Shown: piece by piece, positions 7,835-10,566 of the stretch
Position numbering within the stretch: position 1 is the stretch's first letter
Layout of the letters: each line of letters starts with the position of its first letter
Assembly (NCBI GenBank): GCA_005884305.1
Contig: VAYL01000149.1
Location: 1,364 to 14,871, forward strand
Source: Actinomycetota bacterium
GTDB taxonomy: Bacteria > Actinomycetota > Thermoleophilia > Solirubrobacterales > 70-9
DNA: 13,508 nucleotides
Direction of reading: 5' to 3'
The notes under the pieces: model-generated
What the model was told of the DNA's origin: nothing
What the model saw: the letters and a program-made list of their open reading frames with translations, nothing else
The model's database searches: none
Program-made: the position numbers and the translations under genes

Positions 7835-7886
7835 AGGCCTCCTCCTTGATGTTCCGATCCGCGGCTTCTGCCGCGCCGCCCGGCGA

Positions 7887-7911
7887 ATACCCCTCTCGTG
7901 GCGTTCGTAAC
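7887..7911 (-). promoter_or_regulatory. Candidate SigB/SigF-type promoter (GTTA-N15-GGGTAT) for the secreted protein gene
   Basis: On the minus strand GTTA (7911-7908) is followed after 15 bases by GGGTAT (7892-7887), close to the actinobacterial general-stress sigma consensus GTTT-N14-16-GGGTAT. It lies about 52 bases before the ATG at 7834. The divergent gene at 8089 has a matching element with the same 15-base spacing. Confidence 0.5.
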
Positions 7912-8030
7912 GTCGAGGGTCCGGGCTCGTTTCGGCGCGAGGCCTTGGCCTGTCGGCCGCGCGCCCGCGACGAGTGGTTGGTCGGCGGGCCGGCTCGATG
8001 GCAGCGAGCTTGTTCGAAAAGACGCAGGAG

Positions 8031-8055
8031 GTTATGCCGCCCGCCCAACGGGTAC
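8031..8055 (+). promoter_or_regulatory. Candidate SigB/SigF-type promoter (GTTA-N15-GGGTAC) for the gas vesicle region
   Basis: GTTA (8031-8034), a 15-base spacer and GGGTAC (8050-8055) lie 33 bases before the ATG at 8089. The element differs from the divergent one at 7887-7911 by one base in the -10 hexamer. Promoter activity is inferred. Confidence 0.45.
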
Positions 8056-8088
8056 GGACGACCCGAACGGAGTCCACACGGAGGAGAG

Positions 8089-8772
8089 ATGATGGAGGCC
8101 AAGACGGCGAGCCGAGGAGGCTCAACGAAGTCGGCGAGGGGCCGGTCTCGCAACTCGGGTGGCGCGGGCAGCAGCTCGCGAAGCGGATCCAGCAGCTCGC
8201 GAAGCAACGGCCGCGCCACGGCGACCAAGGCGAATCGCGCCAAGGCCGGCTCATCCACGTCGCGGGCGCGGTCGAACTCGTCGCGGGCGAAGTCGAACAC
8301 CTCGCGCCCGCGCGCGGGCAGCTCGAGCCGTCCGCGGACCAGCAGCCGAACGCGGACGAGCAAGGCAAAGCAGAACCCGGCGCGCGCTGCGGCGGACACC
8401 GTCAGCGACGGCGCGCAGACGGCGGCCGCGCGTATTGCAACCGCTGCGCAGAAGGCTAAGACACCACTCCTGGCCGGGGGCGCCGCGCTTGCCGGGCTCG
8501 CAGGCGCCGGGCTGCTGGCAGCACGCACAAACCGCCGGCGCAAGGTACTCGGTGTGGCGATGCCCAAGCGAAGCGGGTTCTCGATGCCGAAGAAGCCGAG
8601 CGGGTTCTCGCTGCCGAAGCGCAACGGGATCAGACGCGACGCACGAAAGGTGGCGGGCGCCGTCAACGACGCCGCGAAGCGCGCGGACCGCGTCGGTCAG
8701 CGCATCAGCCGCGTCGCGGGCGGCGTGCAGAACATCAGCGAGACGACCGATCAGGCGGTGAAGCGGATGTGA
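8089..8772 (+). CDS. Basic Ser/Arg-rich protein with hydrophobic segment, gas vesicle-cluster associated
   Basis: A 227-residue protein without a domain I can name. Residues 8-98 are a low-complexity Ser/Arg/Lys/Gly/Thr tract with no acidic residue. A hydrophobic stretch follows at 127-145 (LLAGGAALAGLAGAGLLAA), then a basic RTNRRRK. Three MPK/LPK repeats come next (MPKRSGF, MPKKPSGF, LPKRNG at about 158-180), and last an amphipathic helical tail, ARKVAGAVNDAAKRADRVGQRIS. The arrangement of hydrophobic segment then amphipathic helix loosely recalls YtxH/GvpT-like proteins, but that is weak. The frame is open from 7846; ATG at 8089 is chosen because GGAGGAGAG lies directly before it. ATG 8092 is equally possible. 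It is the first gene of the gas vesicle region, so a role in vesicle biogenesis, clustering or anchoring is a guess from context. Confidence 0.75.
   Translation: MMEAKTASRGGSTKSARGRSRNSGGAGSSSRSGSSSSRSNGRATATKANRAKAGSSTSRARSNSSRAKSNTSRPRAGSSSRPRTSSRTRTSKAKQNPARAAADTVSDGAQTAAARIATAAQKAKTPLLAGGAALAGLAGAGLLAARTNRRRKVLGVAMPKRSGFSMPKKPSGFSLPKRNGIRRDARKVAGAVNDAAKRADRVGQRISRVAGGVQNISETTDQAVKRM
8169..8205 (+). repeat. 16-bp direct repeat within the Ser/Arg tract
   Basis: CAGCAGCTCGCGAAGC occurs at 8169-8184 and again at 8190-8205, a 21-base (7-codon) period. It encodes part of the SSSR repeats of the basic protein and indicates that the tract grew by in-frame repeat expansion. Confidence 0.8.
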
Positions 8773-8812: not shown

Positions 8813-9529
8813 ATGGCCGGAAGCCAGGCGCAGTCAAAGGAAACACGCCTATCGCGATACGCGCGGGAGGCGCTGAGCGAGTGGGCGAAGGCCGCCCGGT
8901 ACTCGAGCCGGGCCGTCTCACCGGCGCTGAAGGAAGTTGCATCGTCGCTTCGACCCCGGGTCAAGCCTGGCGGTGGCCCGGGCCAATCGCTTCGTGAGCG
9001 GCTGAACCCGGCGAATACCGAGAAGGGCGGGCGGCTCGGGGACGCCGCTGATTTCGCCCTCGAGAAGCTCGGCGGACCGGCCGGGAAGGCGATCTCCAGG
9101 TTCGCCGGCGGGAGCCGGATCGTGGAGCGATTGCGGAGCGGCGAGGAGGATGCGGGCGACGAGTCGGCCGGTCGCGGCGGGGAGAGCGGGGAGCGTTCCG
9201 GCGCGAACGGCTCCAGTGCCAACGGCTTCCACGGGCGGCTTCCGGTTCCGATCCAGGAGTCGATCGAGGTTGCGGTGCCAGTCCAAGCCGCCTACCGGCT
9301 ATTCACCCGGTTCGACGAATACCCGCGCTTCCTGGATCGCGTGGAGACCGCCGAACGGATCACCAAAGGACGCGTGTATGTCGCCGCCAGTATCCGGGGA
9401 CGCCGCCGCGAGCTCATCGCGCAGATCGTCGATGAGCGGCCCAATGAGCGCCTCGACTGGGAATGCGGAGATGAGATCGAGCACTCGGGCGTCGTCACTG
9501 TTCGGCGAGGAAGACGAGGACAGCGGTGA
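8813..9529 (+). CDS. SRPBCC protein, 5' part of the interrupted gene
   Basis: A 238-codon open frame with AGGA at 8803-8806 before the ATG. The N-terminal 70 residues form a basic amphipathic region (SRYAREALSEWAKAARYSSR), and residues about 75-140 are Gly/Ser/Glu-rich linker. The SRPBCC domain begins at about 147 (IQESIEVAVPVQAAYRLFTRFDEYPRFL) and is cut after GVVTV, its last seven or so residues being the out-of-frame RGRRGQR. Only about two thirds of the fold would be made, so a stable, ligand-binding domain seems unlikely from this piece alone. Confidence 0.6.
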   Translation: MAGSQAQSKETRLSRYAREALSEWAKAARYSSRAVSPALKEVASSLRPRVKPGGGPGQSLRERLNPANTEKGGRLGDAADFALEKLGGPAGKAISRFAGGSRIVERLRSGEEDAGDESAGRGGESGERSGANGSSANGFHGRLPVPIQESIEVAVPVQAAYRLFTRFDEYPRFLDRVETAERITKGRVYVAASIRGRRRELIAQIVDERPNERLDWECGDEIEHSGVVTVRRGRRGQR

Positions 9530-9569
9530 CGGCGAACGCCAAGGGGAACGCAGGCGGTCGAGCTCGAGC
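9498..9569 (+). repeat. 72-bp dispersed direct repeat, copy 1 (recipient, in SRPBCC gene)
   Basis: Positions 9498-9569 match 10405-10476 at 71 of 72 bases; the only difference is A at 9548 versus G at 10455. Here the segment is read in the frame that gives RRGRRGQR and a stop, which fits neither the fold nor the reading in gvpA. This copy is therefore taken as the acquired one. Confidence 0.92.
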
Positions 9570-9580
9570 CGAGCGGAGTC

Positions 9581-9934
9581 GTGGAGCGGCTGACCCGCAC
9601 CGCGGGCCTGACCGAACGTGCGATCCGGGCCGACCTGCATCGCTTCAAGGCATATGCCGAGCTGTTCGAGGACGACGAGGTGGAACCGGCAGGCGAGGAG
9701 GAACCGGACGCGGAGGAGAGCGCGGCTGACGCCGACGAGGAAGAGGGGCTCGAGGACGAGGACGAGTCCGAGGCCGAGTACGTGGACGGGGAGGAATACG
9801 AGGACGGGGACGAGCTCGAGGATGAGGAGGACTTCGAGGAGGATGACTTCGAAGGCCAGGACGACGAGGAGTACGAGGACGAGGAGGACTTCGAGGAGGA
9901 CGAGGAGCTCGAGCCGGCGAGGGCGCGCCGATGA
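9581..9934 (+). CDS. SRPBCC C-terminal helix plus acidic tail, 3' part of the interrupted gene
   Basis: A 117-codon open frame if translated from GTG 9581, in the same frame as the 5' part. MERLTRTAGLTERAIRADLHRFKAYAEL is the long C-terminal helix expected at the end of an SRPBCC domain. The remaining 88 residues are an acidic low-complexity tail with about 55 Asp or Glu, ending in a basic ARARR. No clear Shine-Dalgarno site precedes the GTG, so independent expression is doubtful. The acidic tail is a possible partner for the basic tails encoded by neighbouring genes. Confidence 0.5.
   Translation: MERLTRTAGLTERAIRADLHRFKAYAELFEDDEVEPAGEEEPDAEESAADADEEEGLEDEDESEAEYVDGEEYEDGDELEDEEDFEEDDFEGQDDEEYEDEEDFEEDEELEPARARR
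9824..9900 (+). repeat. 20-bp direct repeat within the acidic tail
   Basis: GAGGAGGACTTCGAGGAGGA occurs at 9824-9843 and at 9881-9900, 57 bases apart (19 codons). It encodes EEDFEE units and shows in-frame expansion of the Glu/Asp tail. Confidence 0.8.
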
Positions 9935-10053
9935 GCAGCGGCACGCAGACAGCCTGGCGCCGAGGCCTCGTGACTGAACTGGTTCGCGGAGGCAGGCACC
10001 ACGCGCCTTTGCCACCGCGCGTTGGCAGCAGGCGAATCCAGAAAGGAACGTAG

Positions 10054-10566
10054 ATGGCTACTGCAATGCAGCAACGAGGATCGATGCAGCCATACCGCGG
10101 CGGCAGCGGATACGTCGCGCGATCGTCATCGAGCGGTCTCTACGACGTCCTCGAGCTGATCCTCGACAAGGGGCTCGTGATCGACGTCTTCGTGCGAGTG
10201 TCCCTGATCGGGATCGAGATCCTGACGGTCGACGCGCGGATCGTGATCGCGAGCGTCGACACGTACCTGCGGTTCGCCGAGGCCGTCAACCGGCTGGATC
10301 TGATGTCCACTGAGACGCAGGGCCTACCGGAGATGATGGAGGGCATCACCGAGGGAGGCGCGTCCAACAAGACTAAGGGCGTTCTCCAGGGAGCGAAGGA
10401 GGCGCTGTTCGGCGAGGAAGACGAGGACAGCGGTGACGGCGAACGCCAAGGGGAGCGCAGGCGGTCGAGCTCGAGCACGACCCGCCGCCGGCGCAAGAGC
10501 GGCAGCAGCGGGTCCTCTGGCGGCGGATCCTCGGGGTCCCGAAGCCGATCGAGCAGTAAGAGCTAG
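10054..10566 (+). CDS. gvpA: Gas vesicle structural protein GvpA with long Ser/Arg-rich tail
   Basis: A 170-residue protein whose residues 28-83 are the GvpA shell fold: [19 protein letters not shown], then [25 protein letters not shown] and [10 protein letters not shown]. GvpA forms the ribbed gas-permeable wall of the vesicle. Classical GvpA is about 70 residues and actinobacterial ones are longer. Here residues 84-170 form a tail with a short acidic patch ([10 protein letters not shown], 118-127) and then a basic Ser/Arg/Gly tract. The start ATG follows AAAGGA. gvpF starts 12 bases downstream. Part of the tail-coding DNA (10405-10476) is duplicated in the SRPBCC gene. It could instead be named GvpJ or GvpM by automated tools, but the [11 protein letters not shown] core is that of true GvpA. 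Confidence 0.93.
10405..10476 (+). repeat. 72-bp dispersed direct repeat, copy 2 (likely donor, in gvpA)
   Basis: This copy encodes GvpA residues 118-141 in frame ([10 protein letters not shown] then [13 protein letters not shown]) and continues smoothly into the Ser/Arg tail, so it is taken as the original. The other copy is at 9498-9569. Confidence 0.92.

Follow-up and report, generated by a model that had tools for sequence, protein, structure and literature searches.

A short patch of an SRPBCC (START/polyketide-cyclase-like) gene has been replaced by a copy of the tail of the nearby gas-vesicle gene gvpA, and the copied piece brings a stop codon into the SRPBCC domain. Both genes lie in a stretch of 13,508 bp, hereafter the window, taken from inside contig C83 (20,286 bases) of an actinomycetotal draft metagenome-assembled genome (MAG) of 2.35 Mb in 268 contigs, 73% complete. 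The gvp cluster of the window includes the SRPBCC gene, gvpA, gvpF/L, gvpG, gvpO, a second gvpA/J-type gene and a second gvpF/L. We think it probable, if by no means certain, that the replacement arose by a recent, single and non-programmed templated event. Such an event would be a known kind of mutation; we have seen one case of it and no sign of a program. The features on which the analysis rests are collected in Table 1.

Table 1 Features of the SRPBCC and gvpA genes in the window (coordinates are window positions)
Feature	Position	Strand	Basis
SRPBCC (START/polyketide-cyclase-like) gene, 5' part, ending early at a TGA from the copied piece	8813..9529	+	227 of 228 pre-junction residues as in P0001
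Stretch standing for 15 P0001 codons of SFHELAPRLTHIELT	9497..9556	+	9498-9556 (59 nt) gvpA-like; 9497 not
Acceptor copy of the 72-bp repeat	9498..9569	+	Self-comparison and genome search
Premature TGA within the SRPBCC domain	9527..9529	+	Reading frame
Severed SRPBCC 3' part: last strand residues, C-terminal helix, acidic tail	9557..9934	+	Normal frame to the normal stop
Right-junction 13-bp match GTCGAGCTCGAGC	9557..9569	+	Common to gvpA (SSSS frame) and SRPBCC (VELE frame); VELEP in P0001
gvpA, intact donor gene	10054..10566	+	PF00741 43.9 bits (cut-off 25); NF006872 169.5 (cut-off 151)
Donor copy of the 72-bp repeat, the native 24-residue gvpA tail	10405..10476	+	Same tail in P0099, nearly same in P0100

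The two copies form a direct repeat (9498-9569 and 10405-10476) with a spacing of 907, and sequence comparison bears out the identity at 71 of 72 bases reported in a first-pass annotation of the window. The only mismatch, A at 9548 versus G at 10455, is silent in gvpA, at the third base of a codon (GAA/GAG). Because of this one base the copy does not reproduce the gvpA consensus exactly, and the difference fits either a donor allele that was slightly different or a single change made later. Beyond the ends of the repeat the two sites are dissimilar on both sides, and outside it the SRPBCC gene and gvpA share no exact same-strand run longer than 10 bp. The draft genome holds these two copies, both on contig C83, and no third; a repeat family or mobile element was rejected on this count.

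Local repeats of this kind are scarce. Across 40 sampled stretches of the same draft genome (346,473 bases), a single other local repeat of at least 30 bp was found, one of 34 bp, and none was found in 16 stretches (320,000 bases) of a single-contig relative, G006. The scan started from exact seeds of 20 and took in direct copies separated by 60 to 5000 bases and inverted copies within 5000 bases, with a complexity filter against simple sequence. Chance similarity was accordingly rejected, given the 71/72 identity, the 10-bp ceiling on other matches between the pair and this scarcity. The 34-bp repeat is exact and direct, at 1637-1670 of locus L068, with its copies 2,780 bases apart. At a length of 24 bases, self-repeats among loci L001-L039 comprise the window's own and those of L005, L016, L022, L023 and L030. 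The new direct repeat in the window would itself make a 907-bp deletion possible, with loss of the gvpA core.

The direction of copying is clear: gvpA is the donor and the SRPBCC gene the acceptor, because the tail is native in gvpA relatives and the SFHELAPRLTHIELT site is intact in SRPBCC relatives. P0001, an ENA protein of 384 aa in a cluster of 9 members, is the nearest SRPBCC homologue; it shares 98% identity with the window protein in the part that aligns and reads GVV-SFHELAPRLTHIELT-VELEPSGVVERL at the site, where the window has 19 other residues in place of SFHELAPRLTHIELT. The flanks are barely diverged from this protein, with one difference in the 228 residues before the junction and agreement at each of the first 73 after it, in line with the proposal that the event was recent. 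On the donor side, the window gvpA product passes the Gas_vesicle profile. P0099 is identical to it over residues 19 to 170, tail included, and P0100 carries nearly the same tail; among 120 listed of 7995 gvpA matches, the exact 24-residue tail occurs in one (P0099) and EEDEDSGD in two. Copying from the SRPBCC gene into gvpA was therefore rejected, since the tail is native in gvpA relatives, and the gvpA-to-SRPBCC direction given in the annotation is sustained by the intact P0001 and the native tails of P0099 and P0100.

More distant homologues agree with P0001. Of 98 SRPBCC homologues, 90 extend to the site, and 85 carry the motif FHxLAPxLT or LHxLAPxLT, ungapped. Thirteen of the 98 lack LAPxLT, among them eight fragments (134 to 233 aa) that end before the site; close variants (FHEVAP, FHELTP, FHELSP) occur in the four full-length homologues P0046, P0053, P0062 and P0068, and the site of full-length P0040 is not displayed, though this protein is counted among those reaching it. 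The insert peptides occur in none of the 98, the evidence for absence being the 90 that reach the site. Comparison with relatives, which the annotation had suggested, thus points to an ancestral stretch of the SFHELAPRLTHIELT type, and the idea that the segment is a normal part of both genes was rejected. With a looser site motif, 30 loci (L010-L039) gave a true match in 17 and none in 12, including the window itself (L010); the match in L021 was spurious alone, and L012 and L015 had a spurious match beside a true one. P0001 as a query against the contig database returned 423 pattern matches and no relative.

The two junctions differ in kind. The 13-bp match at the right junction holds a 10-bp palindrome, TCGAGCTCGA, and exceeds the 10-bp same-strand maximum found elsewhere between the two genes. 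These 13 bases were very likely in the acceptor before the event, because P0001 has VELEP there, so that the right-hand microhomology described in the annotation is supported. VELE is found in 13 of the 85 homologues and is not family-wide; the argument therefore leans on the near relative P0001, from which a pre-existing match in the acceptor appears well supported by inference. At the left junction, an 11-bp microhomology had been deduced from presumed ancestral VTVRR codons. These codons proved wrong, since P0001 and the other relatives carry S or T (43 and 42 of the 85, respectively, with S in the nearest three, P0001-P0003) followed by F-H or L-H, and the claimed microhomology falls with them. 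As judged from protein, the shared run at 9498 would be zero bases for an AGC codon, one for ACC and two for ACT.

We propose that a DNA end in the SRPBCC gene, arising during replication or break repair, annealed through the 13-bp match to gvpA 907 bp downstream. From there, 59 nt of the gvpA tail would have been copied, and the product would have been rejoined, near GTC-A of the SRPBCC gene, over 0-2 shared bp and with the loss of ~45 nt, leaving a stop inside the SRPBCC domain and gvpA untouched. As to the polymerase or joining route, we infer that an anchor on one side and a near-blunt junction on the other fit a template switch, short-patch illegitimate recombination, or end joining with templated filler. 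Ku is encoded in the MAG, and end joining is therefore available.

Several known processes resemble this scheme in part. Short-patch double illegitimate recombination (SPDIR) is independent of RecA and proceeds via a single-stranded intermediate. It was reportedly described in Acinetobacter baylyi, in PNAS in 2016. As in SPDIR, a short stretch of the acceptor is here replaced, not merely inserted into, by a distant copy from the same genome; a junction shows microhomology (13 bp on the right; 0-2 bp, as estimated from protein, on the left), and the outcome is one clustered mutation. In contrast to SPDIR, clear microhomology is here confined to one side. Templated insertions made by end joining or template switching (MMBIR/FoSTeS-like) likewise copy tens of bases from a nearby template and have one microhomology-anchored and one nearly blunt junction, and Ku is encoded here, although nothing links it to the replacement. 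Gene conversion between gvp paralogues shares the unidirectional copying inside one cluster and the intact donor, but gvpA and the SRPBCC gene are unrelated, their flanks are dissimilar, and no homologous tract is present beyond the 10-bp longest match. Gene conversion in the strict sense, which the annotation had offered, is thus unfit because homology is lacking.

The replacement exchanged ~45 nt of SRPBCC coding sequence for 60 nt, of which 59 are gvpA-like. As the net change is +15 nt, the SRPBCC frame resumes. The readings given in the annotation hold: the piece is in frame in gvpA, and in the SRPBCC gene it yields RGRRGQR and the TGA, followed by VELEPSGVVERL in the same frame, so that the gene is interrupted within its domain in this assembly. 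The lost residues (229-243 of P0001) include nine positions that are invariant in a 21-sequence alignment (F230, H231, L233, A234, P235, L237, T238, E241 and L242). A predicted structure places them, with modest confidence, at the end of strand 223-230, in the turn that follows and over most of strand 237-245; the C-terminal helix (263-279) lies beyond the new stop. The model has a mean pLDDT of 56, with ten-residue means of 62-83 over residues 141-250, 47 over 251-260 and 72-75 over 261-280. Its best Foldseek match among solved structures, at that mean pLDDT, belongs to the START superfamily; the matches that come next include TcmN-type aromatase/cyclases and PYL receptors. Intact P0001 passes the profiles PF10604 (42.8 bits, cut-off 27.4) and PF03364 (30.5, cut-off 23.4), which places it in the SRPBCC/START-like helix-grip family; the truncated window protein scores 25.8 bits with PF10604, below the cut-off, and 25.2 with PF03364, above it. 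The SRPBCC protein had no match in NCBIfam.

Because the stop falls within the domain, a full SRPBCC protein is not expected, and loss of function would be the expected consequence. We regard it as very unlikely that the altered gene still works, whether by readthrough of the TGA or by a 3' restart at GTG 9581 to give a modified protein. The frame does resume after the net +15 nt, and a TGA followed by C, as here, is a leaky stop context; against this, TGA is the ordinary stop of other window genes, and the lost residues are probably structural in the predicted domain and contain the nine invariant positions.

Downstream of the site, the acidic tail of the SRPBCC gene (9692-9931) consists of imperfect repeats, mostly at 18-nt spacing. 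Relative to P0001 it shows a 16-residue gap and three substitutions, and this length change suggests that tail length may vary among close strains.

A serious rival to the templated event is an assembly or library chimera, produced by an amplification switch at the 13-bp match or by a misclosed gap, with the gene intact in living cells; we consider this a real possibility, though a doubtful one. A 13-bp match suffices for template switches in amplification. The fragmented and incomplete state of the MAG, the existence of an intact, near-identical protein elsewhere (P0001, in its cluster of 9) and the undecayed flanks all speak for a chimera. The junction also had no second sighting. Its 23-mer gave no exact match in the contig database, from which near records may be left out, and window DNA 9470-9600 had no match longer than 50 of its 131 bases in 60 relatives. 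Eleven of the 60 gave one or two matches of 22-50 bases (E 1.5e-4 to 9.7e-4), which were taken for chance; some overlap a junction position, the longest covering 48 query bases at 78% (G033). Among proteins, none of 26 candidates for the severed fragment scored, in a search whose reach is unproved, as the window's own fragment was not returned either. What speaks against a chimera is the sequence itself: two precise junctions fall within 72 bases (C83:10861-10932), with over 9 kb of contig on each side; the left one seems to offer no long shared word to a graph assembler; one base sets the copy apart from gvpA; and the 40 other sampled stretches held one similar repeat, of only 34 bp. On balance the altered gene is probably present in cells and not confined to the assembly.

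The annotation had also raised phase-like variation, in which a donor cassette, gvpA, would turn the SRPBCC gene on and off. Both genes do sit in one cluster, and the change does turn the SRPBCC gene off, but we find this programmed reading extremely improbable. The original stretch is lost and would not return without an outside donor, and recombination between the two repeat copies would cost gvpA its core. Reversibility with both states recoverable finds no counterpart here: the MAG, at 73% completeness, contains no visible silent copy of the lost stretch and one SRPBCC match, with no second found, although the missing part may hide a copy. Nor does an insert-bearing relative appear among the 98 homologues, eight of which end before the site. 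We give scarcely more credence to a broader scenario in which the gvp clusters of these bacteria repeatedly swap short pieces between unrelated neighbours at GAGCTC-rich palindromic words, with fast one-way shedding of the SRPBCC protein while gvpA is kept.

The neighbourhood of SRPBCC and gvpA also exists outside this genome. In G006, G071 and G073 gvpA lies inside the fetched flank of the SRPBCC match, and in G053 the distance from SRPBCC to gvpA is ~1.5 kb. Three same-genus genomes had no gvpA match and no SRPBCC match, and hence provide no comparable second case within the genus. The names borne by two gvpA matches, P0179 and P0205, hint that the host may belong to Solirubrobacterales or a group close to it, a weak clue since gvpA is strongly conserved. 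A literature search found no account treating the SRPBCC gene in gvp clusters of this bacterial group, or its role, and the available portions of PMC5839063, PMC8965627, PMC8116780 and PMC5312590 contain nothing bearing directly on the gvpA/SRPBCC finding. Elsewhere in the window, a Ser/Arg/Lys-rich protein with no Pfam or NCBIfam match is encoded directly before the SRPBCC gene (7846-8769), and two adjoining small lipoprotein-like ORFs on the minus strand (1253-1639 and 1751-2131), alike by eye, are apparently a tandem pair of paralogues.

If the patch is an artefact, it warns that short chimeric patches in draft MAGs can break genes. If it is real, an uncultivated bacterium would offer a clean natural case of templated microreplacement in which the donor, the acceptor, an intact relative and one anchored junction have all been identified, and in which nature would have knocked out the SRPBCC gene of a gvp cluster.
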